DNA of 35,239 bases, taken from an uncultured Chlorobiaceae bacterium (GTDB lineage: Bacteria; Bacteroidota; Chlorobiia; Chlorobiales; Chlorobiaceae). Every line of letters starts with the position of its first letter. Position 1 is the first letter of the stretch. Positions 4,961 to 20,905 of the stretch are shown in pieces. Under the pieces are notes generated by a model. It made no database searches. It was not told the origin of the DNA and was given only the letters and a program-made list of their open reading frames with translations. The stretch spans positions 1-35,239 of the forward strand of contig CAIPYV010000057.1 in the NCBI GenBank assembly GCA_903869365.1. The letters run 5' to 3'. The position numbers were made by a program, and so were the translations under genes.

Positions 4961-7900
4961 CCACCGATATCACGGAAAAAGGGCTTGAAACCCTCATCAT
5001 GCGCCATACTACCGGTACAGACGGTTTTGTTTCATCCTCCGGTCAGGTTGAGCAGTCATCACCACCGTATGGCGGAACCGGATATATCGCGGGTACTCCA
5101 AAAGAGTATGACCGTGCATACTCGCTTGATGTTTCGCAGCTCTTCTCCTTTCTGCGTGCCACACAGCCAGAGCAATTCGCAAAGCTTGCCATGGCAGAGG
5201 CGAACAAACCGGGGGATATCAATCGCCTCAAGTTTCTTGCCCGCCTCTCCACCGAAATCGGCAAACGAGGCGTGATTGATGTGCTGCGCAAGGGCATTGA
5301 GCATGGGGCCCTTCACTTCGACCTTTTCTACGGCACACCCTCTGAAGGCAACGCAAAGGCATCCGGACTGCACGCGCTGAACCGCTTCTCCATCACGCGC
5401 CAACTGGCCTACAGCACGGATGAGACCCGCCGTTCTCTCGACCTCTGCCTTTTCATCAACGGTCTTCCCATTGCCACCTTTGAGCTGAAGAACAGCCTCA
5501 CCAAACAGACCGTAGCCGATGCGGTTGAGCAGTACCGGCGCGACCGCGACCGGCATGAGCGTCTCTTCGAGTTTGGCCGCTGTGTGGTGCACTTTGCCGT
5601 GGACGACAGTGAGGTGCAGATGTGCACGGAGTTGCGCGGCAAGGGCTCATGGTTCCTGCCCTTCAATAAGGGCTATCATGATGGTGCGGGCAACCCTCCC
5701 AACCCGAACGGTATCAAGAGCGATTATCTCTGGAAAGAGCTGCTTACTCCGGCAGGGCTCACCAACATCCTTGAGAACTACGCACAGATTGTTGAGGAAA
5801 AAGATGAGCGGAGAGGGAGAAAAAAACGTCGTCAGGTCTGGCCCCGTTACCATCAGCTCGGCGTGGTGCGTCAGGCTCTGGCTGATGTGCAGCAGTTTGG
5901 GGCAGGGAAGCGTTATCTCATCCAGCACTCCGCCGGGAGCGGCAAATCAAACTCCATTGCCTGGCTTGCGCACCAGCTTATCGACCTGAAGCGGGAGGGA
6001 AGGGAGCTGTTCGACTCCGTGATTGTGGTTACCGACCGCCGGATTCTCGATGATCAGCTCCAGAAAACCATTCGCCAGTTTATGCAGGTTGGTGCTACGG
6101 TAGGCCATGCCCGGCAATCCGGTGACCTCCGCCGCTTCATTCAGGAGGGAAAGAAGATCATTGTCTCCACGGTGCAGAAGTTCCCCTTCATTCTCGACGA
6201 AATCGCCATGGAGGCAGGTCGCACCTTTGCCATTATCATCGACGAAGCGCATTCAAGCCAGGGAGGCAAGACCTCGGCAGCAATGAGTCAGGCGCTTTCC
6301 GGCAAGAATACCTCTGACGCTGAAGAGCCTGATCCTGAAGACACGGTGAACGAAGCGCTCGAAAAACGTATGGCTGCCCGCAAAATGCTGACCAACGCCA
6401 GCTACTTCGCTTTCACGGCAACACCCAAAAACAAAACCCTCGAAATGTTTGGTGAAGCGCTGCCGCCCGACGTTGAAGGCAAGGTGAAGCACCGCCCCTT
6501 CCACAGCTACACCATGAAGCAGGCGGTCGATGAGGGGTTTATCCTTGATGTGCTCAAGAGCTACACCCCCGTCGAGAGCTACTACAAACTGATCAAGAAG
6601 ATTGAGAATGATCCGGAATTCGATACCAAAAAAGCAAAAAAGAAACTGCATCGGTACGTCGAAAGTCACGACCACGCCATCCGGCTCAAGAGCGAGATTA
6701 TGGTGGATCACTTTCACGAGCAGGTGCTGGCCGCCAACAAAATAGGGGGGCAGGCGCGTGCCATGGTAATTACAAGTGGCATCGAAAGGGCGATCCAGTA
6801 CTTTCATGCCTTCCAGAACTATCTCACTGAACGCAAGAGCCCCTATAAGGCGATCGTAGCATTTTCAGGAGTGCACGATTATGATGGAACGCAGGTCAGT
6901 GAAGCGTCGCTTAACGGTTTCCCGGGCAGTGATATCGCCGACAAGATCAAAAACGACCCCTACCGATTCCTCATCTGTGCCGACAAGTTCCAGACCGGTT
7001 ACGATGAGCCCTTGATGCATACCATGTATGTCGATAAACTGCTCTCAGGCATCAAGGCGGTGCAGGCCCTCTCACGCCTCAACCGCTCACATCCGCTGAA
7101 GTACGACTGCTTTGTCCTCGACTTCCAGAACAATTTTGAAACCATTGCCTGCGCTTTTCAGGACTACTACCGTACCACGCTGCTTGCCGAAGAAACCGAC
7201 CCGAACAAACTGAACGACCTCAAGAGAGATCTCGACAACGCGCAACTCTATACACCCGATCAGGTGCAGCAGCTTGTTTCACTCTTTCTTGGCGGTGCCG
7301 ACCGTGACCAGCTCGACCCGATTCTTGATACCTGTGTTGCACTCTATACCAGCTTGCTTGACGAGGATGGGCAGGTGAAATTCAAGGGCAATGCCAAAGC
7401 CTTCTGCCGCTCATACAGCTTCCTCTCCTCTATTCTGCCCTACAGTAACGCCGCATGGGAAAAGCTCTCAATCTTTCTGAACCTCCTCACGCCCAAGCTC
7501 CCGGCTCCAGTGGAGGAGGATCTCTCGAAAGGTATCCTTGACGCTATCGACATGGACAGCTACCGCGTCGAGAAGAGAGCGATGCAGAAAATTGTACTCC
7601 AGGACAGCGACGCCGAAATAGAGCCCATACCGATGGAAGGCGGCGGGCACAAACCCGAACCGGAGCTTGACCGATTAAGCAACATCCTCAAGAGTTTCAA
7701 CGAACATTGGAGAGAACAACTGCAAGACCCCGAACGCCAGACCAAACGCATCATTGACGACATTGCGCCAAAAGTAGCCGATAACACTGCCTACCGGAAC
7801 GCCAGAGAAAACACCCCGCACACCGCCCGCATGGTACACGACGAAGCACTCGGCAAAGTGATGCAACTTATCTTGAAAGACGATACCCAGTTCTACAAAC

Positions 7901-7968
7901 TCTTCGTCGAAAACGAATCCTTCCGCCGCGAACTCGGCGATGTAGTCTACGCAATGACAAACGGCTGA
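4957..7968 (+). CDS. hsdR: Type I restriction endonuclease subunit HsdR
   Basis: This is the ATP-dependent translocase and nuclease subunit of the type I enzyme. It is 1003 aa, normal for HsdR. The N-terminal nuclease domain shows the PD-(D/E)xK pattern with D162, E176 and K178 (in FELKN). The superfamily 2 helicase part has Walker A (AGSGKS, residues 326-331), Walker B (DEAH, residues 429-432) and a TATPKNK motif III. The second RecA lobe contains DKFQTGYDEP and QALSRLNR. All key residues are present and the frame is open, so the nuclease looks functional. The ATG overlaps the hsdS stop and is preceded by GAGGAGG. Confidence 0.94.
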   Translation: MTTDITEKGLETLIMRHTTGTDGFVSSSGQVEQSSPPYGGTGYIAGTPKEYDRAYSLDVSQLFSFLRATQPEQFAKLAMAEANKPGDINRLKFLARLSTEIGKRGVIDVLRKGIEHGALHFDLFYGTPSEGNAKASGLHALNRFSITRQLAYSTDETRRSLDLCLFINGLPIATFELKNSLTKQTVADAVEQYRRDRDRHERLFEFGRCVVHFAVDDSEVQMCTELRGKGSWFLPFNKGYHDGAGNPPNPNGIKSDYLWKELLTPAGLTNILENYAQIVEEKDERRGRKKRRQVWPRYHQLGVVRQALADVQQFGAGKRYLIQHSAGSGKSNSIAWLAHQLIDLKREGRELFDSVIVVTDRRILDDQLQKTIRQFMQVGATVGHARQSGDLRRFIQEGKKIIVSTVQKFPFILDEIAMEAGRTFAIIIDEAHSSQGGKTSAAMSQALSGKNTSDAEEPDPEDTVNEALEKRMAARKMLTNASYFAFTATPKNKTLEMFGEALPPDVEGKVKHRPFHSYTMKQAVDEGFILDVLKSYTPVESYYKLIKKIENDPEFDTKKAKKKLHRYVESHDHAIRLKSEIMVDHFHEQVLAANKIGGQARAMVITSGIERAIQYFHAFQNYLTERKSPYKAIVAFSGVHDYDGTQVSEASLNGFPGSDIADKIKNDPYRFLICADKFQTGYDEPLMHTMYVDKLLSGIKAVQALSRLNRSHPLKYDCFVLDFQNNFETIACAFQDYYRTTLLAEETDPNKLNDLKRDLDNAQLYTPDQVQQLVSLFLGGADRDQLDPILDTCVALYTSLLDEDGQVKFKGNAKAFCRSYSFLSSILPYSNAAWEKLSIFLNLLTPKLPAPVEEDLSKGILDAIDMDSYRVEKRAMQKIVLQDSDAEIEPIPMEGGGHKPEPELDRLSNILKSFNEHWREQLQDPERQTKRIIDDIAPKVADNTAYRNARENTPHTARMVHDEALGKVMQLILKDDTQFYKLFVENESFRRELGDVVYAMTNG

Positions 7969-7977: not shown

Positions 7978-8223
7978 GTGGTGCAGGGACACACGTTAAG
8001 AACGTTCGATAGAAACAAGTTGGCCCTCCTCACCAACGCAAACGCCATCATGGTCGTCCACAACCACCCATCCGGCAACCCCGACCCCAGCCGAGCCGAC
8101 AAAGAAGTAACCACCAAACTCATCCAAGCCAGCAACATCCTCAACATCAACCACCTCAATCACCTCATTATTGGCAACAACCAACACTACAGCTTCTTTG
8201 CCCACGGCCTCATCCCCAAATAA
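7978..8223 (+). pseudogene. RadC-like JAB/MPN domain fragment
   Basis: This short frame, in the same phase as hsdR and starting just after its stop, encodes about 81 aa resembling the C-terminal JAB (JAMM) domain of RadC-family proteins. The metal-site pattern HNHPSGNPDPSRAD is present (H28, H30, S38, D41), followed by LNHLIIGNN. The family is normally over 150 aa, with a helix-hairpin-helix part and a catalytic Glu upstream; both are missing. The only starts are GTG codons at 7978 and 7981. I read it as the remaining 3' end of a radC-like gene whose 5' part was lost at the hsdR junction. A stand-alone short JAB protein is possible but less likely. Confidence 0.6.
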
Positions 8224-8239
8224 CCCCCACCACCAAAAA

Positions 8240-8261
8240 GGGCACGGAACCACCCGTGCCC
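8240..8261 (-). terminator. Rho-independent terminator for the minus strand
   Basis: A perfect 8-bp stem (GGGCACGG with CCGTGCCC) has a 6-base loop. Read on the minus strand, it is followed immediately by a run of five T. It lies 24 bases beyond the stop of the small minus-strand frame ending at 8286, so it could end that transcript. On the plus strand no T-run follows, so it is not an obvious terminator for the hsd operon. Confidence 0.6.
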
Positions 8262-8285
8262 AAACCATCCGTTTCAGCCAATGAC

Positions 8286-8447
8286 CTATACCTGCAGACC
8301 ACTGAGAAGCCCATAAAGCACTCCGCTCCGTCCTCGTTCATCAATTCCATATAGTCGCCAATAGATAAAAAACACGTCATCAACAGCGTAATACTCCGAT
8401 TTTCTGAGTACATTATCCTCTAAAGCACCTCGCAACAGCGGCAGAAA
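8286..8447 (-). CDS. Small minus-strand reading frame or gene remnant, unknown function
   Basis: On the minus strand an open frame of about 50 codons (from after a TGA at 8448-8450 to a TAG at 8286-8288) reads as a protein-like sequence rich in aromatic and charged residues, including SEYYAVDDVFFIYWRLYGID and ending GLLSGLQV. No ATG opens it. A TTG at 8433-8435 is the best start, giving 49 aa; otherwise it is the 3' end of a larger lost gene. A clear terminator follows on the same strand, which supports past or present transcription. I do not recognise the family. Confidence 0.3.
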   Translation of the reverse strand, partial: FLPLLRGALEDNVLRKSEYYAVDDVFFIYWRLYGIDERGRSGVLYGLLSGLQV

Positions 8448-8450
8448 TCA

Positions 8451-8802
8451 GTGTTGTCAAGCGGTCAATAGGAATACCAAATTCTTTTTATAATTAGAAA
8501 GAAATATCTATAAAAAAGGCGTAAAAAAATGCAGACAGGGGAGTCCCAACCATAAAAAAATCAACCGCAAAACTGCTGTAAGTTAAAGCACTTGTGTATA
8601 GTAATACTCTGTTGTCTCACTTTCTGGTTTCTATAAAAAAAGTAAAGGGCTATGCTCAGGCAAGAGCGATTGTTCAGCCATAGAAGAAAAGAGAGTTGAT
8701 AAAGGCAGGGTATAAAAAAGAAACGCTCCCAACCAAAGTCGAGAGCGTCAGACCGGAGATGCTATCTCTGGTGATGTTATGCTTCCAATATAAGCGATAG
8801 TG
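8451..8802. other. Non-coding AT-rich stretch with hairpins before the NYN gene
   Basis: No gene is seen in about 350 bases. The stretch is AT-rich with several A-runs. Near its right end are two possible hairpins: ACGCTC with GAGCGT (about 8722-8748), and CCGGAGAT with ATCTCTGG around a 3-base loop (8753-8771), the latter about 30 bases before the next start. These may belong to the 5' leader of the NYN gene. Confidence 0.35.
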
Positions 8803-9438
8803 ATGAATAAAGAAAACACTCACCATGCAAAAGAAGGGGTTCAGGTCTATGTTGATGGATTTAACCTCTATTTTGGCATGCTTGAAGCAGGGTTTGAATA
8901 CTGTAAATGGTTAAACCTGAAACTGTTGGCAACAAACCTGCTGAAGCCGAATCAGGAACTGGTTTGCGTAAAATATTTTACCAGTAGAGTCAGTGACAAC
9001 CCTGACAAGCAAAAACGGCAAACAACATATATCGAAGCGCTTGAGTCAGAAGGAGTACATATCTTATACGGTCACTACCAGAGAAACGCCATAGAATGCA
9101 AACGTTGCGGGAATATTTGGGCCTCCTACAATGAAAAAATGACCGATGTCAATATTGCCACTCAGATGCTGATAGGGGCCTATCAGAATCAGTACGATAT
9201 GGCCATGCTGATTTCAGGCGATAGTGATCTGGTTCCTCCCATTCGTCAAATTCATGAACTATTTCCCTCGAAAAGGCTCTTTGTAGCATTTCCGCCAAAA
9301 CGGCATAATCAATCTGTCGCATTGGTTGCAAAAGGTTCAATGACGATAGGAAGAAAAAAACTGGTTGAGAGCCAGTTCAGCGAATCGGTGAAAAAACGAG
9401 ATGGTTTTCTTCTGCGAAAGCCAACCGATTGGCAGTAA
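8803..9438 (+). CDS. NYN-domain protein (LabA/DUF88-like, PIN-fold ribonuclease family)
   Basis: This 211 aa protein carries an NYN domain, a PIN-like fold found in metal-dependent ribonucleases. The acidic residues expected at the active site are visible: D18 in VYVDGFN, D115 in EKMTDVNIATQML, and D140 and D142 in SGDSDLVPPI. A single CxxC pair (ECKRCG) lies between the first and second motif. A GTG at 8800 sits directly before the ATG at 8803; I prefer the ATG. The gene is intact among broken neighbours. NYN proteins have been linked to RNA processing and to defence islands, but nothing in the sequence shows its substrate. Confidence 0.85.
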   Translation: MNKENTHHAKEGVQVYVDGFNLYFGMLEAGFEYCKWLNLKLLATNLLKPNQELVCVKYFTSRVSDNPDKQKRQTTYIEALESEGVHILYGHYQRNAIECKRCGNIWASYNEKMTDVNIATQMLIGAYQNQYDMAMLISGDSDLVPPIRQIHELFPSKRLFVAFPPKRHNQSVALVAKGSMTIGRKKLVESQFSESVKKRDGFLLRKPTDWQ

Positions 9439-9508
9439 ACGCTTCTCAACGATCATCTTCCTTGTCGAAGACTTAAAATTATGTGGTTCTCAATATAAAG
9501 TCAAGGTA

Positions 9509-9869
9509 ATGTCATCTTCATATACGGCTCAACAGGTTGTCTCAAAAAAAAGGGTAGCCGACCACGGCGAAGTTTACACCAGCAAGCGTGAAGTCAATGC
9601 AATGCTCGATCTCGTAAAAAAATAAAACAGAGCGGATTGAGTCACGGTTTCTGGAACCCGCCTATGGAACGGGCAATTTCCTGGCTGAAATCCTTGACCG
9701 GAAACTCACGGTCGTGCAATCACGATACGGTAAAAACCAGCTTGAATACGAACGGTACGCCGTCCTTGCTGTATCCTCTCTCTACGGAATTGACATTCTT
9801 GAAGACAATATCAAAGAGTACCAAACACGGCTTTATAACAGTTTTGAGCAAAGAATGCTGGAGTCGTAG
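9509..9869 (+). pseudogene. Adenine-specific DNA methyltransferase, frameshifted N-terminal remnant
   Basis: Two adjoining frames encode the start of an N6-adenine methyltransferase. The first (9509-9625) gives KKRVADHGEVYT and REVNAMLDLV, typical of the opening of these enzymes. The second (about 9621-9869) continues with TERIESRFLEPAYGTGNF, LEYERYAVLAVSSLYGIDI and LEDNIKEY. The frame changes in a run of seven A at 9616-9622; removing one A joins the two parts. Motif I reads EPAYGTG where EPACGTG is usual. The rest of the enzyme, including the NPPY motif, is missing and a DinD-like sequence follows directly. The gene is broken three ways: frameshift, motif change and 3' loss. Confidence 0.75.
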
Positions 9870-10309
9870 AGCCTCTGGATTATGCCATTTTTCAGAATCA
9901 TGGATACATGGGCCTGTACGGAGGATTAAGACAAGATGATATTCACAGATTAAAAGGATTGAAAAAGAGCCAGAAAATCCTGGATTACATGGGAAGTACG
10001 GAATTGGCAGCCAACCTGTTTCGAGCAACACAGGCAGAAGAAAAACTCTGCAGAGACAAGGTCAAAGGCAAAAAAGCAGCAAATCATACACACCAGGAAG
10101 TCGGCGCAAAAGTAAGGAAAACCATTCAGGAATTGGGTGGCACTATGCCAGAGAATTTGCCAGCAGTTGAAAGCATCAAGAAAATCGAAACCAAACAGCG
10201 CAAGAAACTTGGTGGATCAACTCATCCGCCAAAAAAAAACAACCGAAGAATGATACGCGGTATCACAATCTATTCGGATCTTTTGTTCACTTTTTTTATG
10301 AACACATAA
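9848..10309 (+). pseudogene. DinD-like DNA-damage-inducible protein, 5'-truncated
   Basis: The frame open from 9848 to the TAA at 10307 encodes the C-terminal part of a DinD-family protein. It has KNAGVVEPLDYAIFQNHGYM, LKKSQKILDYMGSTELAANL, then FRATQAEEKL and TIQELGGTMPENLP. The family is usually near 270-300 aa; only about 150 residues remain and the N-terminal BRO/KilA-like region is gone. The first in-frame ATG is at 9908, inside the conserved part. Its upstream end runs directly into the methyltransferase remnant in another frame, so a deletion probably fused the two. The last 25 residues look unlike the family. Confidence 0.72.
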
Positions 10310-10370
10310 TCAACTACTCGTTGTTCGATAACATAAAAAGCCCATATCAACATATAACCCCATCCAGCAG

Positions 10371-10406
10371 GGCGCCGCACTCCGCTTCGCTCCGTTTGCG
10401 CAACCC
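10371..10406. repeat. 36-base GC-rich direct repeat, copy 1
   Basis: This element (begins GGCGCCGCACTCCGC, ends TTTGCGCAACCC) recurs in the same orientation at 11471-11506 with 34 of 36 bases identical. The two copies are exactly 1,100 bases apart and enclose the toxin-antitoxin-like pair. The GC-rich composition contrasts with the AT-rich DNA on its left. Confidence 0.75.
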
Positions 10407-10497
10407 CGAAGATCTTCTCGACATCATCGAAACCAAAGGCCGTGAAATCGCCGAAGCATTAGCCGTACTGAGAATCCAGAGAGAGCTGCTGCAATGA
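10399..10497 (+). pseudogene. C-terminal fragment of an unknown protein, possibly a DNA methylase tail
   Basis: Thirty-two codons from 10399 to a TGA at 10495 read as NPEDLLDIIETKGREIAEAL and then AVLRIQRELLQ. This looks like the helical tail of a larger protein and is reminiscent of type I methylase C-termini, which I cannot confirm. It has no start codon and begins inside the 36-base repeat, so recombination at that repeat probably removed the rest. Confidence 0.35.
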
Positions 10498-10683
10498 AGG
10501 TGAGTCACCGCTTTTTACTTGTAGAGCAGCCGGTATCAAATGTGGTTTTCGTGTCAATATCGTTCTATAAAAAAAGCCGTTATAATGATAACCATTTCTC
10601 ATTTTAATGGTAGTGAGGTCATAAATGACTTTAATAGAGTTTAAAAAAGTGTCTATTTATTTTATTTATCACACAAAAGTTTA

Positions 10684-10693
10684 ACTTATAAGT
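10684..10693. promoter_or_regulatory. Palindrome at the start of the toxin-antitoxin pair
   Basis: A perfect 10-base palindrome, ACTTATAAGT, overlaps the GTG start of the toxin-like gene. A second inverted repeat (ACCATT and AATGGT, 10591-10611) lies upstream in very AT-rich DNA. Antitoxins with an HTH commonly repress their own operon from such sites, so these are candidate operators. No binding evidence exists in the sequence. Confidence 0.35.
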
Positions 10694-11177
10694 GAAGAAA
10701 AGAGCTGAAATAGTACTTGTCGATCAAGGTTCAGGCGGTACGCTCTATTCGGTCCGTTTTGCCCGGGAGAAAGAAACGGAGCTCGAAAAGTTTCTTCACA
10801 ACGAGCTATTGTATAAGGAAAAAGGTTTTAACGAAATTGTTCAGCGTCTTTCCAGCATGACCGATAGTTTGGGGTTCAGAGAGCAATTTTTTGAAATGAA
10901 TGAAGGGTTGCGGACAGATTCTGTAGCCGCCCTGAAGAGAGGACGCATTCGATTGTACTGCTTGCGTTGGTCTTCGAGTTTGTTGATTGTTGGCACTGGA
11001 GGCCTTAAAACAGCTCAAACGTATCAGAAAGATATGGCCCTTCGCCATATTGTTCCTGAACTCCAGGAGCTTGATAAGCTGATTATGATGCGCCAGAGGT
11101 CAGGTGACATCGAAATAGATCACAATAACGGGAGCATGAGGGGTAACCTTATATTTTCATTGGATGATAGACTATGA
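10692..11177 (+). CDS. Putative RelE/HigB-superfamily toxin of a type II toxin-antitoxin pair
   Basis: The gene starts with GTG and encodes 161 aa. The block LKRGRIRLYCLRWSSSLLIV followed by GTGGLK resembles the central strands of Gp49/HigB-like mRNA-interferase toxins, where a similar RxxY/F stretch is followed by a hydrophobic strand. It is longer than classical HigB (about 100 aa), with a C-terminal extension. The immediate downstream partner, an HTH protein whose ATG overlaps this stop as ATGA, supports the toxin-first HigBA order. The pair is bracketed by direct repeats, fitting a mobile cassette. The toxin call rests on a weak motif plus context. Confidence 0.6.
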   Translation: MKKRAEIVLVDQGSGGTLYSVRFAREKETELEKFLHNELLYKEKGFNEIVQRLSSMTDSLGFREQFFEMNEGLRTDSVAALKRGRIRLYCLRWSSSLLIVGTGGLKTAQTYQKDMALRHIVPELQELDKLIMMRQRSGDIEIDHNNGSMRGNLIFSLDDRL

Positions 11178-11770
11178 ATACATCATTTTTTCAAAAGGTT
11201 GTTGAGCAGATACCGCCCTTTACAAAAAAATATGTAGAAAGGCAGGGTGAATTTGCTGTCAAGCTTAGTGAGTTACTTGAATCAACAGGTATGACTCAGC
11301 GTGAGCTTGCTGAAAAACTGGGTAAAAAAGAGTCCTATGTCAGCAGGATTTTGGCTGGTTGGTCGAATCCAACCTTGAAAACTATTGTTGAATTTGAAGT
11401 GGCATTGGGGAAAGATATTCTTGATTTTAATCTGGATATAAAGAGAGATCAATCTGAAAAAACCCTCAGAGGCGCTGCACTCCGCTCCGCTCCGTTTGCG
11501 CAACCCACCGGTCAGGATGCTTCCGCTCCAGGAACCACGCCGATGCAAACCAGCTCTTCGATGAAGCAGTCTCAATATTCTTCAGGTGAAACACCTCCGA
11601 CTTCGCCTCCGCCTGCTCAACCGCCAGGTACAACTCCCGATACACCCCCGACCGCTCCCGTTCGCCCCGCTTCAGCCAGTTCAACAAGGTCTTCCGGTCA
11701 ATCCCCGCAAGTTTGCAAGCCACCTCCCGGTAATGACCCGCACCCAGCGCATCCACAATGCACCCGGTAA
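11174..11770 (+). CDS. XRE-family HTH antitoxin-like protein with a chimeric C-terminal tail
   Basis: The first 95 or so residues are a normal XRE/HigA-like antitoxin. The helix-turn-helix lies at about residues 36-66 (MTQRELAEKLGKKESYVSRI, then LAGWSNPTLKTI). From about residue 97 the frame enters the 36-base repeat and then reads antisense through the neighbouring minus-strand gene. This gives a Pro/Ser/Thr-rich tail of about 100 residues (for example SPPPAQPPGTTPDTPPTAPV) that has no protein-like character. The natural C-terminus was therefore probably replaced by recombination at the repeat. The DNA-binding part should still fold; the tail may be harmless or destabilising. Confidence 0.65.
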   Translation: MNTSFFQKVVEQIPPFTKKYVERQGEFAVKLSELLESTGMTQRELAEKLGKKESYVSRILAGWSNPTLKTIVEFEVALGKDILDFNLDIKRDQSEKTLRGAALRSAPFAQPTGQDASAPGTTPMQTSSSMKQSQYSSGETPPTSPPPAQPPGTTPDTPPTAPVRPASASSTRSSGQSPQVCKPPPGNDPHPAHPQCTR

Positions 11771-11801
11771 TCTCCTCCGTAATCTTCGCCGCAGGCATCA
11801 C
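11466..11801 (-). CDS. Phage terminase small-subunit-like DNA-binding protein
   Basis: This 111 aa minus-strand protein resembles small proteins at phage packaging loci. It has an HTH region (REVACKLAGIDRKTLLNWLK) followed by a helical part ending SSKSWFASAWFLERKHPDRW. The pattern of a helix-turn-helix, then a tract of A, E and K, then an ERKxPDRW motif is typical of terminase small-subunit-like sequences. Its last 12 codons (VAQTERSGVQRL) lie inside the 36-base repeat, so the C-terminus is probably altered. It may begin at either of two adjacent Met codons. No other phage genes are near, so it is likely a prophage remnant or a stand-alone DNA-binding protein. Confidence 0.55.
   Translation of the reverse strand: MMPAAKITEEITGCIVDALGAGHYREVACKLAGIDRKTLLNWLKRGERERSGVYRELYLAVEQAEAKSEVFHLKNIETASSKSWFASAWFLERKHPDRWVAQTERSGVQRL
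11471..11506. repeat. 36-base GC-rich direct repeat, copy 2
   Basis: The second copy of the element at 10371-10406 differs at two positions. It lies at the point where the antitoxin frame stops looking like a protein and where the minus-strand terminase-like gene ends. This makes it a likely recombination boundary. A 13-base piece of the same sequence (GCACTCCGCTCCG) also occurs at 8318-8330. Confidence 0.75.
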
Positions 11802-11984
11802 AACCCCCTTTTTATACGGGGAAATGGGGAAATAGAGAAAGAACTATCCATTTTTCCCGCCCCTCCATCCTCTTCTTTATCCTTATCATTTCCTATCTTT
11901 CCTGCTCTTCGTTTGCTTTTATCCCTGTTTTTAGGTATAATTATCCATTGAATGTACGCAAAATATTGAAAAAAATATAAATAT
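11802..11984. promoter_or_regulatory. AT-rich divergent region between the terminase-like and HTH genes
   Basis: This 183-base gap lies between genes pointing away from each other. It contains CT-rich and AT-rich tracts. Divergent promoters are expected here, but I could not fix -35/-10 boxes with confidence. Confidence 0.3.
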
Positions 11985-12368
11985 ATGCCTATATCAGGAG
12001 CGTACACCGACGAAGCAAAACGCCTCAAAGCAGAGATCAAAAAGAAATTCAAAACCCAGGTAGCCCTCTGCCAGGCAATCGGCGCCAAAGACGCTTCCTA
12101 CATCACCGCTTACGTCACTGGCAAAAACCGCATCGGCAACATCCTTCGCGAAAAACTCGAAGCCGTCGGCATCGACGTCAACTACATCATCTACGGCAAA
12201 AAAGGCACCCCACAGCTCCCGCCACCGCCGCCCGACCCCACCCTGACCCTCATCCTCACCGACTGCACCCAAAAAATCCAGCAGCTCCAAAACGCCGCGC
12301 TCGACATGAACAAACAACTTCTCGAACTCAACAAACTCCTCGACACCCTCAAAAAAAGACTAACCTGA
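11985..12368 (+). CDS. Small HTH protein with a C-terminal coiled-coil-like segment
   Basis: This 127 aa protein has a predicted helix-turn-helix in its first 70 residues (TQVALCQAIGAKDASYITAY, then VTGKNRIGNILREKLEAVGI). A proline run follows (QLPPPPPDP, about residues 77-85). The C-terminal helix has Leu at heptad-like spacing (LLELNKLLDTLKKRL), suggesting self-association. It looks like a small regulator of phage or mobile-element type, and it is divergent from the terminase-like gene. The specific family is not recognised. Confidence 0.65.
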   Translation: MPISGAYTDEAKRLKAEIKKKFKTQVALCQAIGAKDASYITAYVTGKNRIGNILREKLEAVGIDVNYIIYGKKGTPQLPPPPPDPTLTLILTDCTQKIQQLQNAALDMNKQLLELNKLLDTLKKRLT

Positions 12369-12698
12369 TGTGTCATTCTAACTGAAAACGCACAATTCGC
12401 CATAGTCAGTCGATCCGGTTAAAGTGCCCGTCATGGTTCCGGTTTATTCGTGCAGGGTTGTGTATGGTGATTTTCTAAACTACACCCCGTAAAGGCTCGC
12501 CACCATCAGCAAATGCCATAAATACACCTGTTCCAAAAGAGAAAAATATTTACACATCAAAAGTTTGCTCTCTCTTTTTCGTTATCTTTAGTAGCTTTGC
12601 AGAATATTTCTCAAGTGTACGGAAGGCTCAAAAAAAGGAAAAATTGAACGGTTGGTATAGTGCTTTAAAATAATCAGATATAGATCTTTCTTGAAAAA
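12369..12698. other. Intergenic region upstream of the nucleotide-sugar genes
   Basis: No gene is seen in 330 bases. It marks the change from the accessory region to core genes. It is AT-rich towards the right, where a promoter candidate lies (12644-12671). No terminator hairpin is obvious after the HTH gene. Confidence 0.5.
12644..12671 (+). promoter_or_regulatory. Candidate sigma-70-type promoter for rfbD and following genes
   Basis: TTGAAC and TAAAAT are separated by 16 bases, with TAAAAT ending 28 bases before the rfbD ATG. The spacing and sequences fit a housekeeping promoter. This is a visual match only. Confidence 0.35.
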
Positions 12699-13580
12699 AT
12701 GGACATGAATATTCTTGTTACCGGCAGCAAAGGGCAACTGGGGTCTGAACTGCAGGAGTTGTCGGCCAACAGTGGCAAACAGCACTTTTTTTTCTATGAC
12801 CTTCCTGAACTTGATATAACAAACCAAGATCTCGTCGATCGAGTATGTCGCGAACATGACATAAATGTTATGGTGAATTGTGCGGCATACACTGCAGTGG
12901 ACAAGGCGGAAGCTGATGTTGAAACAGCTTTCCGGGTCAACAGGGATGGTTCGGCTGTGCTTGCTTCATGCGCTAAAGAGCGAAATGCACTGCTGGTGCA
13001 TATTTCCACGGATTATGTTTTTAATGGAGAGTCATGCACTCCTTATCGTGTAAACGCTCCGGCCACTCCGCTTGGTGTTTATGGAAAGTCGAAATGGGAG
13101 GGTGAGGAGCGTGTTCGTCAGATTGCACCCTCATACATGATTATCAGAACATCATGGCTTTATTCTGCTTATGGAGCTAACTTTGTGAAAACCATGCTTC
13201 GGCTTGGTGCAGAACGTCAAATGCTGAATGTGGTGGATGACCAGATCGGAACACCGACCTATGCGGGCGATCTTGCTGCGGCTATCGTTACGATTCTTGA
13301 GCACTATGATTGCAGTAAACAGTATAGAGAGACCTATCATTATTCCAATGAAGGTGTCTGTTCCTGGTATGATTTTGCTGTAGCCATTATGGATCTTTCC
13401 GGATTATCCTGTAAAGTATTGCCAGTGTCAAGCGCCCACTATCCCCAGATTGCCCCAAGACCGAGCTTCAGCGTTCTTGACAAGTCGGCCATCAAGCAGG
13501 AGTGGGGAGTGGAAATTCCTTACTGGAGGGTATCACTTGCTTCTTTGCTGGAAAAGATCCAGCCGCGAGCAACAGAATAA
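12699..13580 (+). CDS. rfbD: dTDP-4-dehydrorhamnose reductase
   Basis: RfbD (RmlD) performs the last step of dTDP-L-rhamnose synthesis, reducing dTDP-4-dehydrorhamnose with NAD(P)H. The 293 aa protein is full length. It shows the N-terminal nucleotide-binding motif TGSKGQLG, the STDYVFNG block, and the catalytic Y128-xxx-K132 pair in YGKSKWEGE. The C-terminal part has the substrate-binding PRPSFSVLDKS block. A second ATG at 12705 could also serve as start. The gene opens a co-directional sugar-nucleotide run; rfbA and rfbC are not in the window. Confidence 0.93.
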   Translation: MDMNILVTGSKGQLGSELQELSANSGKQHFFFYDLPELDITNQDLVDRVCREHDINVMVNCAAYTAVDKAEADVETAFRVNRDGSAVLASCAKERNALLVHISTDYVFNGESCTPYRVNAPATPLGVYGKSKWEGEERVRQIAPSYMIIRTSWLYSAYGANFVKTMLRLGAERQMLNVVDDQIGTPTYAGDLAAAIVTILEHYDCSKQYRETYHYSNEGVCSWYDFAVAIMDLSGLSCKVLPVSSAHYPQIAPRPSFSVLDKSAIKQEWGVEIPYWRVSLASLLEKIQPRATE

Positions 13581-13639
13581 CACAACCCGGCAGGGGATAT
13601 TGGGTAGAGAGAGGTCAACCATTAACCATCGGAACACCA

Positions 13640-14689
13640 ATGCATATTCTGATCACCGGAGGAGCCGGGTTTATAGGGTCGCATGTTGTCAGGCATTTTT
13701 TGAAGAGCTATCCGACGTACACGATAACCAATCTTGACAATCTGACGTATGCAGGCAACCTTGCCAACCTCAAGGATGTTGATGCTCTGCCGAACTACCG
13801 TTTTGTCAAAGGGGATATAACTGATGGAGTTTTTCTACAGCGTTTGTTTCAGGAGTCACACTTTGATGGAGTCATTCATCTTGCTGCTGAATCGCACGTT
13901 GACCGATCAATTTCAAACCCGACGGAGTTTGTCGTTACCAATGTGCTTGGTACAGTGACTCTGCTCAATGCCGCAAAAGCTTGCTGGCAGTCAGATCTTG
14001 AAGGAAAGAGGTTTTATCATATTTCAACTGATGAGGTGTACGGTTCACTTGGCAGGGAAGGGCTGTTTACTGAACAAACTGCTTACGATCCCCATAGCCC
14101 TTATTCGGCCTCAAAGGCCTCTTCGGATCATTTTGTCAGGGCTTATCATGATACCTATAATTTGCCGGTTGTGATCAGCAACTGTTCTAATAATTATGGT
14201 TCATTCCAGTTTCCTGAAAAGCTTATTCCGCTTTTTATCAATAATATTGTGCACAACAAACCTCTGCCGGTCTATGGCAAGGGTGAGAATATTCGTGACT
14301 GGCTCTGGGTTGTTGACCATGCGCAAGCGATCGATGTGATTTATCATCAGGGCAGCAATGGAGAAACTTACAATATCGGCGGTCATAATGAATGGAGCAA
14401 CATTGATCTGATCAGGCTTCTTTGTCGGATTATGGACACAAAGCTTGGGCGCGCGGCTGGTGTGTCGGAAAAACTCGTCACCTATGTTACCGACCGGGCT
14501 GGTCACGACCTTCGTTATGCCATTGATTCATCGAAATTGCAGCGGGAGCTTGGCTGGGTACCGTCAATATCGTTTGAAAAAGGGCTTGAGTTGACCGTCG
14601 ACTGGTATCTTACAAATGCGGAGTGGCTTGACAATGTTACTTCCGGCGGATATCAGCATTATTACGAAGAGATGTACGGTGGAAGATGA
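13640..14689 (+). CDS. rfbB: dTDP-glucose 4,6-dehydratase
   Basis: RfbB (RmlB) converts dTDP-glucose to dTDP-4-keto-6-deoxyglucose with bound NAD. From the ATG at 13640 it is 349 aa, the family's usual size, and begins directly with the Rossmann motif (MHILITGGAGFIGSH). The frame is open further upstream to 13502, but that extension overlaps rfbD and has no family character. Catalytic D131 and E132 lie in STDEVYGSLG, and Y155-xxx-K159 in YSASK. The NCSNNYG and RDWLWVVDHA blocks are present. It follows rfbD by 59 bases. Confidence 0.94.
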   Translation: MHILITGGAGFIGSHVVRHFLKSYPTYTITNLDNLTYAGNLANLKDVDALPNYRFVKGDITDGVFLQRLFQESHFDGVIHLAAESHVDRSISNPTEFVVTNVLGTVTLLNAAKACWQSDLEGKRFYHISTDEVYGSLGREGLFTEQTAYDPHSPYSASKASSDHFVRAYHDTYNLPVVISNCSNNYGSFQFPEKLIPLFINNIVHNKPLPVYGKGENIRDWLWVVDHAQAIDVIYHQGSNGETYNIGGHNEWSNIDLIRLLCRIMDTKLGRAAGVSEKLVTYVTDRAGHDLRYAIDSSKLQRELGWVPSISFEKGLELTVDWYLTNAEWLDNVTSGGYQHYYEEMYGGR

Positions 14690-14734
14690 AAAAAGCGTGA
14701 CTTGATCTATAAACGTTGAACTCAAAGCTTTTTT

Positions 14735-15715
14735 ATGCGAATTCTGGTGATCGGTGGAGCTGGCTATATCGGCAGTCATGTTGCAAGAGCTTTTCTTGAC
14801 CGTGGCTATGCGGTGACCGTGTTTGACAATTTTCAGACCGGGTTAAGAGAAAATCTTTTTGATGAAGCTGCGTTCGTGCATGGTGATATCATGCGTCCGG
14901 AACAGCTGAGGGCAGTCATGACGGGAGGAGGGTTTGATGGGTGTGTTCACCTTGCAGCCATGAAAGCTGCCGGTCAGTCAATGCTGAAGCCTGAAATCTA
15001 CGCTGAAGCAAATATTGCCGGAACCATTAACATTCTCAATCAGGCATCGGCAGCAGGAATAGCAAGGGTTATCTTTTCATCTTCAGCTGCAGTGTATGGC
15101 ACTCCTCAATACCTTCCAATCGATGAGGAACATCCAAAGGAGCCTGAAAACTTTTACGGGTTTACCAAGCTTGAAATAGAGCGCTTACTTGAGTGGTATG
15201 ATAAGCTCAAAGGGATGCGGTATGCTGCAATCCGCTATTTTAACGCTGCGGGCTATGATGTTCGGGGTAGAATCAAGGGGCTTGAGCTGAATCCTGAAAA
15301 CCTTTTGCCGATAGTCATGGAAACTGCAGCCGGTATTCGTCCGAAACTCTCCATATTTGGTGATGATTATCCGACGCGTGACGGAAGCTGCATACGCGAT
15401 TATGTTCATGTCAGCGATCTGGCAGAAGCGCATGTCACTGCTTTTGAATATATTCTGCAGAAGGAGCAGAGCATTACGGTCAATCTCGGCAGTCAGACCG
15501 GCGTCACTGTTTTTGAAATGGTCGAACGTGCTCGGGCAATCACCGGCAGGTCAGTATCTGCTGAGGTTTCTGGCAGGCGCGCTGGAGATCCTTCTGAACT
15601 TGTGGCATCATCTGCCAAGGCTCGTGAGCTGCTTGGCTGGGTACCGAAGTACAGCGATGTTGACACCCTTATCGGATCGACCTGGAAGATGTACGAGAAA
15701 TTTGTAACCTTTTAA
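14735..15715 (+). CDS. galE: UDP-glucose 4-epimerase
   Basis: GalE interconverts UDP-glucose and UDP-galactose using NAD. The 326 aa protein has GGAGYIGSH at the N-terminus, the SSSAAVYG block holding the catalytic serine, and the catalytic Y141-xxx-K145 pair in NFYGFTK. YFNAAG and RDGSCIRDYVHVSDLA, typical of GalE, follow. It sits 45 bases after rfbB and 16 bases before manC, consistent with co-transcription. A related 4-epimerase acting on another UDP-sugar cannot be excluded by eye. Confidence 0.88.
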   Translation: MRILVIGGAGYIGSHVARAFLDRGYAVTVFDNFQTGLRENLFDEAAFVHGDIMRPEQLRAVMTGGGFDGCVHLAAMKAAGQSMLKPEIYAEANIAGTINILNQASAAGIARVIFSSSAAVYGTPQYLPIDEEHPKEPENFYGFTKLEIERLLEWYDKLKGMRYAAIRYFNAAGYDVRGRIKGLELNPENLLPIVMETAAGIRPKLSIFGDDYPTRDGSCIRDYVHVSDLAEAHVTAFEYILQKEQSITVNLGSQTGVTVFEMVERARAITGRSVSAEVSGRRAGDPSELVASSAKARELLGWVPKYSDVDTLIGSTWKMYEKFVTF

Positions 15716-15731
15716 CAAACCACTTTCGTTC

Positions 15732-17147
15732 ATGATTATTCCTGTCATACTCAGTGGCGGTTCGGGAACCAGGCTGTGGCCGCTCTCCCGTGCATTGTAC
15801 CCTAAACAGCTGCTTTCGCTGATCGGCGAAAAAACCATGCTGCAGGATACGGTACTTCGTCTTGTTTCAACCGCTGATACCGGGCCGGTCTATTGTGTCT
15901 GCAATGAGAGTCACCGGTTTCTGGTGGCTGAGCAGCTTCACGAGATCAATACGGACATCGGGGAGATTATTCTTGAACCACAGGGGCGCAATACTGCACC
16001 GGCCGCCGCTGTAGCAGCGATACTCATCGCTGAAAAGTATCCGGGCGCTACCATGTTGATTCTGCCGGCTGATCATGTTATTTTTGATCCGGCAGCTTTT
16101 GGTCGCGCTGTTGCGACCGGAAAGTCTGCGGCTGAAGAGGGTGGTCTTGTTACCTTCGGAATAGTTCCGGCTACTCCTGAAACCGGATATGGCTATATCA
16201 GGGCTTCAGTCGAACGTGACGGTAAGCTGGCGGCTTATCCGGTGCTTGAATTTGTCGAGAAGCCCGACAAACTAACAGCCGAACTCTATCTTGCCTCGGG
16301 GGAGTATTTCTGGAATAGCGGCATTTTTCTTTTCAAGGCTGAGGCATATCTTCAGGAGCTTGAAGCCCATGTGCCGGAAATAGTTACGGCATGCAGGGAG
16401 TCGGTGAGGAAAGCGCATAAGGATCTTGATTTCTTAAGGCTTGATGTCGATGCTTTTTGTGCATCTCCTTCTGATTCCATTGACTATGCCGTGATGGAAA
16501 AAACTGCCAAAGCAGCTCTTGTTCCTCTCGATGCCGGATGGAATGATGTTGGTGCCTGGTCTGCCCTCTGGGATGTTCATGAGCGGGATGATGCGGGCAA
16601 TGTAAAAAAGGGTGACGTGATGGTGCAGGATGTGAAAAACTGCTATATCCACGCTACCAGTCGTCTTGTTACAGCTGTTGGTCTTGATAATCTCATTATT
16701 GTTGAAACTGTCGATGCTGTGCTGGTTGCGTCGAGGGAGTCTGTTCAGGATGTCAAGACGCTTGTTGAAGAGCTGAAAAGGAAAGAACGGGATGAAACTG
16801 AGATTCATCGGCGGGTCTACAGGCCTTGGGGTTCTTATGAAACCGTTGATTTTTCAGAGCGCTTCAAGGTCAAGCGCATTACGGTAAAACCTGGTGAGGC
16901 GCTGTCGTTGCAAAAACATCATCATCGTGCGGAACACTGGATTGTGGTCAAGGGAACAGCCCTTGTCCGGGTGGAAGACAAGGAGAGCACGTTGTATGAA
17001 GATCAGTCAACCTATATTCCTGTCGGCGCTGTGCATCGTCTTGAGAATGCCGGAGAAACTCCGCTTGAATTGATTGAAGTACAGTCTGGCAGTTATCTGG
17101 GAGAGGATGATATTGTTCGTCTGGAAGACCGGTATGGACGTCAGTAA
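15732..17147 (+). CDS. manC: Mannose-1-phosphate guanylyltransferase / mannose-6-phosphate isomerase
   Basis: This two-domain enzyme makes GDP-mannose. The 471 aa protein opens with the nucleotidyltransferase signature LSGGSGTRLWPLSR and continues with LILPADHVI, FVEKP and WNSGIF. After about residue 350 comes a type II phosphomannose isomerase cupin domain, with RPWGSYE, VKPGEALSLQKHHHRAEHWI and a C-terminal IPVGAVHRLEN block. Both domains are complete. It is the last gene of the sugar run; the next gene starts 113 bases later. Confidence 0.93.
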   Translation: MIIPVILSGGSGTRLWPLSRALYPKQLLSLIGEKTMLQDTVLRLVSTADTGPVYCVCNESHRFLVAEQLHEINTDIGEIILEPQGRNTAPAAAVAAILIAEKYPGATMLILPADHVIFDPAAFGRAVATGKSAAEEGGLVTFGIVPATPETGYGYIRASVERDGKLAAYPVLEFVEKPDKLTAELYLASGEYFWNSGIFLFKAEAYLQELEAHVPEIVTACRESVRKAHKDLDFLRLDVDAFCASPSDSIDYAVMEKTAKAALVPLDAGWNDVGAWSALWDVHERDDAGNVKKGDVMVQDVKNCYIHATSRLVTAVGLDNLIIVETVDAVLVASRESVQDVKTLVEELKRKERDETEIHRRVYRPWGSYETVDFSERFKVKRITVKPGEALSLQKHHHRAEHWIVVKGTALVRVEDKESTLYEDQSTYIPVGAVHRLENAGETPLELIEVQSGSYLGEDDIVRLEDRYGRQ

Positions 17148-17260
17148 AATGGAGGTCCAGGATTTGTTCCTTTTTACCGATTTGCTTTGATGGCATTATT
17201 AAGTATATTACATTTAAACTGTATTGTTTAGTCGGCGATAAACCTAAATCTCAGTGTGAT

Positions 17261-17476
17261 ATGGCTGAAGACATTAAACCTACCGGTCAGGATAAGCGGA
17301 ACCAGAGTGATGTTATTAAGGGGGATTTTTCAACGATCCTGACTGGCGTCGGCACTCTTCTTGACAGTACGATGGCTCCATTAAGCAAAATAGTTGCCCA
17401 GGCGCTTGATTCCCTGACGGTAGTTGCAAAACAGATCCTTGAAGGTGTCAGTTCCTCTCTTGGCGGCAAAAAGTAA
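17261..17476 (+). CDS. Small helical protein, faintly chlorosome-envelope-like
   Basis: This 71 aa protein has a polar N-terminal third and then a long run of small and hydrophobic residues (FSTILTGVGTLLDSTMAPLS, then VAQALDSLTVVAKQILEGV), ending in GGKK. The composition is amphipathic and helical, with no signal peptide. The size, alternating aliphatic and Ser/Thr/Ala pattern and lysine end recall the CsmB/CsmF group of chlorosome envelope proteins of green sulfur bacteria. I cannot establish real homology by eye. It is a single-gene unit between manC and ileS, closed by a strong terminator, which supports its being a true gene. Confidence 0.7.
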   Translation: MAEDIKPTGQDKRNQSDVIKGDFSTILTGVGTLLDSTMAPLSKIVAQALDSLTVVAKQILEGVSSSLGGKK

Positions 17477-17526
17477 GAGCTTGGGGTTTTACGGGCATTG
17501 AATGCCGGTGTTGTTATAAAAAAATT

Positions 17527-17561
17527 CAGGCAAGCTTTTCAGTTATTGAAAAGCTTGCCTG
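17527..17561 (+). terminator. Strong rho-independent terminator
   Basis: A perfect 15-bp stem (CAGGCAAGCTTTTCA with TGAAAAGCTTGCCTG) has a 5-base loop, GTTAT. It is followed within a few bases by a T-run (TGCTGTTTT). It lies 50 bases after the stop of the small 71 aa gene and separates it from ileS. Confidence 0.85.
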
Positions 17562-17647
17562 TGCTGTTTTAATGCCGGGTTCAACGTTATTGATTTTTTT
17601 ATAATCACAGGCAGACTGCCTTTTTTATTGAATGATTCTTAAGAACA

Positions 17648-20600
17648 ATGGACGATAAATTTGTTGAGTATCCATCGAATATACCATACAGCGCTGTAGA
17701 AGCAGAAGTTCTGGCATACTGGAATGACCACGGGATTTTTCTCAAGAGTCTTGAAGAAAGACCGGCGGACAGGATATACTCCTTTTATGAAGGGCCACCT
17801 ACCGTTAATGGCAAACCTGGTGTTCACCATGTATTCAGCCGTACGATAAAAGATGTAGTGTGTCGTTACAAGACTATGCAGGGCTACCGTGTGCCTCGCA
17901 AGGCCGGATGGGATACGCATGGATTACCCGTAGAGATTTCGGTTGAAAAAAAACTTGGTCTTAAAAATAAGGCACAGGTGGTTGAGTATGGCGACGGAGA
18001 GTTCAATGCCGAGGCAAGGGCACTTGTCTATCATCATATTGACGATAATCGCGAAGGGTGGGGAAAGCTGACCGAGCGGATGGGATACTGGGTTGATATG
18101 GATAATCCATACATAACCTGTACCAATGACTATATCGAGTCGGTCTGGTGGGCTCTGAAAACCATTTTCGACAAGGGACTGATCTACAAGGATTATAAAA
18201 TTGTACCGCAGGATCCGAAATCCGAAACGGTGCTGAGTTCGCATGAGCTTGCCTTGGGTTACAAAGAGGTTAAAGATCCCAGCATTTATGTCAAGTTCAA
18301 AGTAAAGGGCTCCGAGGAGTCTCTGCTTGTGTGGACGACGACACCGTGGACACTGATTTCAAATGTGGCGCTTTGTGTCGGTTCGGATATTGATTATGTC
18401 AAGGTTTCACATGCAGAGAGTGGCGAAGTGATGATTCTTGCCAAGTCGCGTCTGCAGGTGCTTCTTGAGAAAAACGAGGAGGGGGAGTCGTTGTGGAAGG
18501 TTATTTCCGAACTCAAGGGACGTGATCTTGAAGGGCTCGACTATGAACCTCTTTTCAGTTATCTGTATCCTGAAAAAAAGTGCTGGTATGTTACTGCCGG
18601 CTCCTTTGTTTCAACTGAGGACGGCACCGGTATTGTGCATATTGCACCGGCTTTTGGCGCTGATGACTATGAGATTGCAAAGAAATACGATTTGCCGATG
18701 CTGCAGCCGGTGGCGCGGAACGGATGTTTTACTGCCGAGGTTAGCGATTATGACGGTATGTTTTTCAAGGATACCGATCCGCTGATTATCCGTCAGCTCA
18801 AGGAGGCAGGGAAGTTGTATCGCAAGGAGATCATCACTCATACCTACCCTTTTTCATGGCGTTATGATGTGCCGGTGATCTATTATGCAAGAGAGTCATG
18901 GTATATCAGGACTACAGCTATAGCTGATCGTATGGTGGAACTCAATAAAACCATTAACTGGTGCCCTCCAGAGATTGGTACCGGGCGTTTCGGCAACTGG
19001 CTCGAGGAGAACAAGGACTGGGCGCTTTCACGTGAGCGATTCTGGGGCTCACCGCTTCCTTTATGGGTTTCGGAGCATTTTGTTATTGGCGATGATGCCG
19101 CTTCGGGAAAGATGTTCGCGATCGGTTCCGTTGCTGAATTGCGTGAAGGATTCATCGATATTGAAGGAGAGAGGCTTCTCCTGGGAGATGCGCTCGACAG
19201 AGGGTTGGCAGTACTTGATCTGCACAAACCTTTTGTTGATAAAATTTATTTTATCAGGGAGGGTATACGCTTCAACCGCACACCGGAGCTGGTTGATGTT
19301 TGGTTCGACAGTGGCTCGATGCCGTTTGCCCAGCTGCACTACCCGTTTGAACATCGTGATCTGTTTGATCAGACCTTTCCGGCCGACTTCATTGCCGAGG
19401 GTGTTGATCAGACCAGAGGCTGGTTCTATACCATGCATGCCATTGCCACTTTGATTTTCGATAAGCCGGCCTACAAAAACCTGATTGTGAACGGTCACAT
19501 TCTTGATAAACAGGGCCACAAAATGTCGAAGTCAAAAGGCAATATGGTCGATCCGTTTGAGACTATGGAGCGTTACGGTGCCGATGCGCTTCGCTGGTAT
19601 CTTATGGTGACCAGTCCTCCCTGGAGGCCGAAATCGTTCAATGCTGATGAGATTGAGGAAGAACAGCGAAAGTTTTTCCGCGCCTTCATTAACAGCTATA
19701 ACTTCTTTGTGCTCTACGCCAATGTTGATGGCTTTACTTTTGCCGAGCCGAACATTGCACTACAGGAGCGTTCCGAGCTTGACCGCTGGGTTTTGTCGTG
19801 TCTGAACACGTTGGTTGGGGCCGTTTATATGCGTATGGAGCAGTATGATCTTACCGGTGCAGTAAGGCTGATCAACGACTTTACCGTTGATGATCTTTCA
19901 AACTGGTATATCCGCCGGTCACGTAAACGCTTCTGGAAAAGCGAGATGGGACCAGACAAGATTGCGGCCTATCAGACGCTCTACAGCGCTCTTGAGACGC
20001 TGGCAAAACTGCTTGCTCCTTTTACTCCATTTCTTGCCGACCGGATCTACCTGAATCTGAATGGAGTCAGCGGACTCGAATCTTGTGAGTCAGTTCACCT
20101 GGCGGATTTTCCTCTGCTTGACGTGTCGGCTATCGACCGTCCGCTTGAGCAACGCATGAAAAAGGCACAGATTATTACCTCGCTTGTCCGAACCATGCGC
20201 GAAAAAGCTTCCATCAAGGTTCGTCAGCCGCTCAAACGTATTCTGCTCGCTGTCAGTGATGCTGAAGCAAGGGAAGAGTATCGATTGGTTGATGATATTA
20301 TTATGGAAGAGATCAATGTCCAGAAGATTGAGTACATAGAGGAGGAGGGCTCAGTCATCAGCAAAAAGGTAAAGCCGAATTTCAAAACCCTCGGCCCGCG
20401 TTTCGGCAAGGATATGAAAGCGCTTGCTGAAGCCATAAGGATCATGAGCCACAAACAGATTGCGCTTCTGGAACATCAGGGACATCTGTCGCTTGAACTC
20501 GATGGTAAAGTGTTTGCTATTATGCGTGAAGATGTAGAGATCATGCATGAGGATATCGAGGGCTGGCTTGTTGCATCCGATGAAGCCAATGGTATTATGG

Positions 20601-20905
20601 TTGCACTTGATACTGAGATGAATGAGGAGCTTGAAATGCTCGGACTTTCCCGTGAGCTGGTAAGTCGTATCCAGGCGCTCCGCAAGGAGAGCGGCTTTGA
20701 TATTACTGACCGTATTGCTCTTGGTATCCAGGGATCGGAAAAACTTCTGGATGCTGTGAAGAAAAATGATGCGTATATTAAAGCAGAAACTTTAGCCACA
20801 TCTCTTGTCACAACAGCATTCGATCCTTCATCAGCAATCAAGGGCAGGGAGGAGAGGGTCAATGGTGAAATTTGCTGGTTATCACTTGAAAAATATGCAG
20901 GTTAA
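17648..20905 (+). CDS. ileS: Isoleucyl-tRNA synthetase, long form
   Basis: IleRS charges tRNA-Ile with isoleucine. The 1085 aa protein is longer than the E. coli type (about 940 aa) and matches the second, eukaryote-like group of bacterial IleRS. The class I HIGH motif appears as PGVHH (residues 57-61), and the KMSKS motif is exact at residues 625-629. The editing domain contains TTTPWTL and [12 protein letters not shown]; the C-terminal anticodon-binding domain has [16 protein letters not shown]. All parts are present. Long-form IleRS has been linked to mupirocin insensitivity in some bacteria, which is family knowledge and not tested here. Confidence 0.96.

Follow-up and report, generated by a model that had tools for sequence, protein, structure and literature searches.

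How did an antitoxin come to end in about a hundred residues that are read antisense through a phage-like gene, and what did those residues replace? We addressed this question in a 35,239-nucleotide stretch of DNA (the window) from an uncultured Chlorobiaceae bacterium. Its plus strand holds an open reading frame of 198 amino acids (11174-11770) with no internal stop; if translated, it would meet its first stop codon at 11768. The start of this frame overlaps the stop of an upstream toxin gene (10692-11177). A Pfam profile search placed an HTH_3 domain of the XRE/HTH_3 type at residues 32-84 (E 4e-11), and about 102 Pro/Ser/Thr-rich residues run from about residue 96 to the C-terminus, so that the frame does stay open well past the HTH, as the original prediction had it. 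We consider it likely that this two-gene pair descends from a three-gene toxin-antitoxin-chaperone (TAC) module, whose antitoxin extension and chaperone gene were deleted and replaced by a random tail, and that the antitoxin now works without a chaperone.

Joins and origin of the antitoxin tail

The cassette and its flanks are made up of the following features.

10371-10406, plus strand: upstream copy of a dispersed repeat (36 bp, 94% identical), which borders the toxin-antitoxin cassette on the left
10399-10497, plus strand: remnant of the 3' end of a gene that lies before the toxin in genome G064 (PEDLLDIIETKGREIAEAL..), with similarity to G064 from 10399
10692-11177, plus strand: toxin gene, 161 aa, GTG start, predicted RelE/HigB-like fold
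11174-11463, plus strand: antitoxin core, residues 1-96, defined by HTH_3 and by the end of similarity to relatives that have an extension
11464-11503, plus strand: repeat-encoded tail stretch, about 14 residues (whole repeat match about 11457-11511)
11504-11770, plus strand: antisense-encoded tail, 88 residues and stop, antisense to the terminase relic (codon-position analysis)
11466-11801, minus strand: terminase-small-subunit-like relic (phrog_4102, E 4.5e-27; intact in L080, L082 and L083)
11985-12368, plus strand: 127-aa phage-regulator-like ORF beside the terminase relic (phrog_8, E 2.3e-5)

To map the joins, we compared the window with 20 segments taken from other family genomes. DNA similarity to five antitoxin relatives with an extension stops at 11461-11463, before that extension, and similarity to two more distant relatives that have no chaperone gene stops at 11430 and 11436. 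Similarity to G064 runs on to 11511, and similarity to relatives of the terminase region sets in at 11504. The first 14 or so tail residues are thus a dispersed Chlorobium repeat, and only the last 88 are antisense to the terminase-like relic. The earlier claim that the tail is purely the reverse strand of the terminase gene therefore holds for those 88 residues and fails for the 40 bases at 11464-11503; its companion, that recombination fitted the antitoxin with an arbitrary tail, is supported by the junctions and by the antisense and repeat origin of the sequence.

The repeat, about 35-50 bp long, has 53 matches in 23 of the 86 family genomes, four of them in the window's own genome, where the other copies are 90-94% identical over 36-40 bp. 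On one strand it gives about 14 residues of the antitoxin tail and on the other roughly the last 12 residues of the terminase relic. Its core, seen in the window and in L085-L114, is approximately AGGCGCTGCACTCCGCTTCGCTCCGTTTGCGCAACC, at times embedded in longer composite repeats, and its minus strand looks like a terminator at 11467-11484. We found no description of this Chlorobium repeat in the accessible portions of the open-licence literature.

The relic, a minus-strand ORF of 111 aa, matches phrog_4102 over positions 12-117 of 166, short of the full-length profile. Intact terminases are 119-134 aa long, and their last 20 or so residues are replaced in the relic by the repeat-encoded ones. 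Four other genomes (L078-L081) share the DNA at 11504-12359 at about 92% identity, a conserved block to which the phage-regulator-like ORF also belongs, and 11504-28017 is largely collinear with G068 (L115) in three blocks of 74-79% identity. In G064, G066 and G079 (L082, L080, L083), about 0.9-1.1 kb separate the counterpart of window 8023-8448, or of part of it, from that of 11504, and an intact terminase C-terminus lies in between. Most simply, the terminase block would be the older chromosome, and the DNA from about 8450 to 11503, including the toxin-antitoxin cassette, would have arrived later.

An antisense frame of this length is in itself unremarkable. When the terminase protein was kept and its codons were shuffled among synonymous sites, the frame stayed open over 88 codons in 52% of simulations, and in 42% when the codon usage of orthologues was applied; among eight terminase orthologues the same stretch contains a stop in six and is open in two (L083, L084). 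Since an open frame is expected by chance, it is the junction that stands out. Between the window and each of the eight orthologues, 16-22 of 21-31 differences in the tail stretch fall on the second position of the tail's codons, where the terminase has its third (wobble) position. The stretch thus evolved as terminase and not as antitoxin tail, and the tail bears no sign of selection as a protein. Four terminator-like sites occur in 10300-12600 (2.4 expected, sd 1.8), the one within the repeat included, and all lie on the minus strand; no plus-strand terminator is therefore predicted within the tail.

A search of the other 85 genomes of the family found no fused antitoxin with this tail, as befits an arbitrary rather than a conserved sequence. 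In that search G064 aligned over window residues 1-168 with an internal stop; its own antitoxin frame ends at 130 aa and, of the tail, has only about 16 repeat-encoded residues in common with the window. Where the antisense part had matches in other genomes, these lay in terminase genes without a fusion, read in reverse and usually interrupted by stops. The antitoxin-terminase junction had no match among viral contigs, which likewise gave no fused copy of the tail, and a DNA search of plasmids with 10692-11770 did not find the same tail. Chance opening of the frame was also considered as a full account of the locus and was rejected: the antisense opening is expected, yet the junction is real sequence history.

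Relatives with an extension and a chaperone gene

The model TAC with a HigBA-type pair is Rv1955-Rv1956-Rv1957 of Mycobacterium tuberculosis (HigB1-HigA1-SecB-TA). The closest relatives of the window's pair that have an extension (L136/G085, L137/G083, L138/G031 and L140/G038) share with it the order toxin, HTH antitoxin, chaperone, as well as the C-terminal extension. Their antitoxins are 129-134 aa long, and in all four loci a third gene, of 153-154 aa, overlaps the antitoxin gene. The extension is short, aromatic and C-terminal, and from its place, its aromatics and the gene order we infer that it is of the chaperone addiction (ChAD) kind. These relatives are Chlorobiaceae by their named records and are mostly metagenome-assembled genomes, a caveat that applies to every junction described here.

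The third protein has no Pfam match, the SecB model PF02556 included, and no PDB sequence match; in escaping the Pfam SecB model it differs from the M. tuberculosis chaperone. Its AlphaFold2 model (L138; best pLDDT 79, five models 56-79) had as its top Foldseek match 5mtw (E 2e-6, TM about 0.5), which is the M. tuberculosis SecB-like chaperone Rv1957 with a ChAD peptide, followed by the SecB structures 1fx3, 1ozb and 1qyn. VIA Z scores against 5mtw and the SecB structures ranged from 10.4 to 8.7. Judged by this one predicted model, the protein has a SecB fold. By gene order and predicted fold the four loci thus look like TAC modules, and by analogy their antitoxins probably depend on the helper chaperone. 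The third gene occurs in 18 of the 86 family genomes and adjoins the antitoxin in all 18. It has no match in the window's genome, which is 99.99% complete, nor in G064; PF02556 likewise has no match in the window's genome, but this model also misses the relatives' chaperone. A probable TAC module was also seen in Chryseotalea sanaruensis (Bacteroidota; L152, 4492-5848), where the toxin, the HTH antitoxin and the third gene are related to the chlorobial ones.

The window's toxin and antitoxin core are homologous to those of the TAC modules. Unlike the M. tuberculosis system, the window has neither a ChAD-type extension at the antitoxin's C-terminus nor a chaperone gene beside it, and its 161-aa toxin is not in Pfam (no family at E 1). 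The toxin also has no PDB sequence match of note, and its AlphaFold2 model (pLDDT 88) has no Foldseek match at E 0.001 or better (best E 0.015). Its nearest VIA neighbours included 6af4, a Streptococcus pneumoniae toxin-antitoxin module (Z 9.7, rmsd 3.4, 111 aligned), and 7awk, the M. tuberculosis TAC toxin HigB1 (Z 8.2, rmsd 4.2, 114 aligned). On this predicted fold the toxin is HigB/RelE-like, not a proven member of that family. The gene order, toxin first and XRE/HTH antitoxin second, is that of HigBA-like type II systems; the antitoxin scores 18.8 bits with the HigA equivalog TIGR02607, below the curated cut-off of 47.7.

The consequence of losing an extension can be gauged from M. tuberculosis. 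The extension of HigA1 leads to aggregation, and aromatic motifs within it bind the chaperone (PMC5105189). Once its last 42 residues are removed, HigA1 needs no chaperone to neutralise the toxin; neutralisation is then full in M. smegmatis and somewhat less efficient in E. coli (Bordes 2016, PMC5105189), and this variant is a soluble dimer (Guillet 2019, PMC6377645). The window presents the same anatomical change, removal of the extension behind the HTH core; here it is natural, the chaperone gene was lost too, probably through the one deletion, and about 100 residues of arbitrary tail were added. By this analogy the window's antitoxin is most likely chaperone-independent now, like the engineered ChAD deletion. 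In E. coli, CmdTAC follows the same toxin-antitoxin-chaperone logic with a SecB-like chaperone; its toxin CmdT is described as an ADP-ribosyltransferase (PMC11618068), whereas the toxin studied here is RelE/HigB-like in look.

The tails differ in composition as well. In a comparison of tails behind the core, that of the window had 115 residues with three aromatics, no Trp and 9.6% hydrophobic residues, and 19 TAC tails had 30-62 residues with 3-8 aromatics, 25-37% hydrophobic residues and, in 12 of the 19, Trp. Two loci without a chaperone gene (L141, L142) have short tails that are 30% and 22% hydrophobic. Composition alone is thus no marker of dependence, and the classes are incompletely separated. 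The table was compiled without L154, L155 and L156, which its search pattern missed and whose tails come from another comparison.

Probable deletion history and phylogeny

In G064 (L139, a contig of 4.4 kb) the antitoxin meets the repeat at the same point as in the window (window CTGAAAAAACCCTCAGAGG, G064 CTGAAAAAACCCACAGAGG). The 103 bases that follow, among them the repeat, align with G031 (L138) at 82%, and farther along 93 bp align at 86% with a mazF-like gene, located in G031 downstream of the repeat. In G031 itself the extension, the chaperone gene and more stand between antitoxin and repeat, with 767 bp between two GAAAA tracts. A deletion between these tracts would explain the G064 junction in one step. 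G064 is thus likely an intermediate: extension and chaperone gene were probably lost at once, in a deletion of about 0.77 kb with its end in the repeat. The G031 contig cuts its toxin gene; the MazF/PemK-like toxin gene downstream of its TAC module spans 1501-1893 (L138/L070; PF02452, E 5.8e-10).

The sequence that immediately follows the repeat in G064 and G031 is also present in G068 (L116), and two more short matches between G064 and G031 are out of order; the region downstream of the repeat is therefore repetitive and rearranged. The first junction is common to the window and G064. Past the repeat they differ; a short match there, CCCACCG, could have been used by both sides of a second join. 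On the tree they are not sisters; both stand next to G031 with weak support (92/52 and 85/0), which leaves a deletion common to both likely without proving it.

From these comparisons the following course of events can be proposed. In the ancestor, as in M. tuberculosis HigA1, the extension would have made the antitoxin unstable unless bound by the SecB-like chaperone from the next gene. A deletion would have run from the GAAAA tract within the antitoxin gene to a similar tract heading the downstream repeat, taking extension and chaperone gene with it. At the far edge of the repeat, a second join would have set the cassette against the chromosomal terminase-like gene in opposite orientation, and the reading frame, as can be read directly, continues from there through 88 antisense codons to 11770. 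The resulting tail, hydrophilic and presumably disordered, would neither aggregate nor call for a chaperone, so that the core would still fold and neutralise the toxin unaided. The part of this history that concerns the deletion and the joins is well supported by genome comparison.

G054 has no chaperone match, yet keeps a Trp-containing part of the extension (..SSWKSIVRKSDTPICTG), which shows that the two are not always lost together. Judged by eye, it may hold a scrap of the chaperone gene (L065 1-407 and L066, the same as L146 and L143). In the same genome the antitoxin adjoins a remnant of the terminase seen in the window, broken at a different point (window 11715), which can be read as another TAC module having collapsed against that gene; two contig ends of G054 overlap exactly by 86 bases.

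In the phylogeny of 29 loci the window nests within a TAC-rich clade (support 100/99 and 97/97), with L138 as its nearest TAC. The seven Chlorobiaceae rows without a chaperone gene do not form one clade (p-AU 2e-8). The fewest changes needed are five among Chlorobiaceae and six over all rows, four of the latter forced by well-supported branches; if the window and G064 shared one event, the Chlorobiaceae minimum would fall from five to four, and some of the changes could be gains of the chaperone rather than losses. The root was placed solely at the midpoint, and the branch that leads to L152 is very long. Left out were G036 (a stop-broken antitoxin, with no toxin found), the second contig of G054 (L146), L153 (26 residues of core) and L144, L145, L147, L148 and L149, taken as copies of loci already in the tree; L143, whose contig ends inside the antitoxin, was entered without a state.

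Like the window, the two-gene relatives (L141, L142, L154, L155 and L156 in Chlorobiaceae; L150 and L151 in Bacteroidales) have the toxin first and the HTH antitoxin second, and no SecB-like gene was found beside them. Their antitoxins, unlike that of the window, are short (87 to about 112 aa) and have no long tail. The five from Chlorobiaceae, with antitoxins of about 101-112 residues, are scattered among the TAC modules and are thus also without a long extension.

Competing explanations and significance

The pair might instead be decaying: a fragment in a degrading island, with toxin or tailed antitoxin inactive and the frame simply not yet closed. The surroundings are indeed fragmentary (a DinD-like piece at 9908-10309, the upstream-gene scrap at 10399-10497, the truncated terminase), the window's genome has no chaperone match, and the toxin's dN/dS against G064 is 0.69 (dN 0.027, dS 0.039; few sites), a value compatible with relaxed constraint. 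Against four other relatives this ratio is 0.21-0.28. The toxin is full length and, in an alignment with 16 relatives, keeps all 25 columns that are at least 90% conserved in the others; the antitoxin core keeps 23 of 23. The core's dN/dS against five relatives is 0.04-0.22, and an active toxin presumably would not last beside a dead antitoxin. This conservation of core and toxin supports activity but may predate the fusion. We therefore regard decay as unlikely, though it deserves to be kept in mind.

That the fusion is an assembly error, the repeat having joined two unrelated contigs, seems very improbable to us. The genome is in 136 contigs, the contigs of G054 and G066 end inside this antitoxin, and the absence of the fusion from the other family genomes and of the junction from viral contigs would fit an artefact; but G064, a separate assembly, shows the antitoxin/repeat junction too, the other repeat copies are too divergent and short to be a good basis for a false join, and in G054 the antitoxin meets the same terminase at its own breakpoint. 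We give hardly any credence to the idea that the tail is a functional, selected domain, such as a new tag for proteases or an extension that binds the toxin. Its frame is open where most terminase orthologues have a stop, but such openness is expected in about half of the simulations, the differences sit on terminase wobble positions, and none of the other 85 family genomes yielded a fused homologue with the antisense part. The preferred reading, a TAC module reduced to a pair, also alters the earlier view that new coding sequence had been made here: a random tail was gained, but because it replaces a chaperone-addiction-like extension and a SecB-like chaperone gene, the event is loss more than gain, and probably an escape from dependence on a chaperone.

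Chaperone addiction has been built and broken in laboratory work (PMC5105189), and how toxin-antitoxin systems acquired it is named as an open issue in a 2014 review (PMC4257090). Within the portions of the open-licence literature available to us, we found no description of its natural loss. The window offers a natural counterpart of the laboratory ChAD deletion and a test case for loss of chaperone dependence, in which an antitoxin core acquired, at least in sequence, a randomly derived tail. As G031, with extension and chaperone, stands side by side with G064 and the window, all from green sulfur bacteria and with closely related cores, the step is directly testable. More tentatively, and with somewhat less confidence than doubt, we suggest a general route: dispersed repeats that serve as deletion end points could strip chaperone and addiction tail in one step, TAC modules would revert in this way to ordinary, chaperone-independent toxin-antitoxin pairs, several times in Chlorobiaceae, and nearly any tail that is not prone to aggregation would be tolerated.

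The wider neighbourhood includes a Type I restriction-modification operon (hsdM, hsdS, hsdR; window 190-7968) with a RhuM-family gene (2532-3569) between hsdM and hsdS. Downstream lies an NYN-domain gene (8800-9438; PF01936, E 1e-12), followed by the DinD-like fragment, which matches PRK11525 at E 5e-40 but under the cut-off; together, 8800-10309 is perhaps a broken defence or SOS island. The G064 ORF that precedes the toxin has no Pfam match, and its scrap in the window, at a guess as to the name, is perhaps the end of an hsdM gene.
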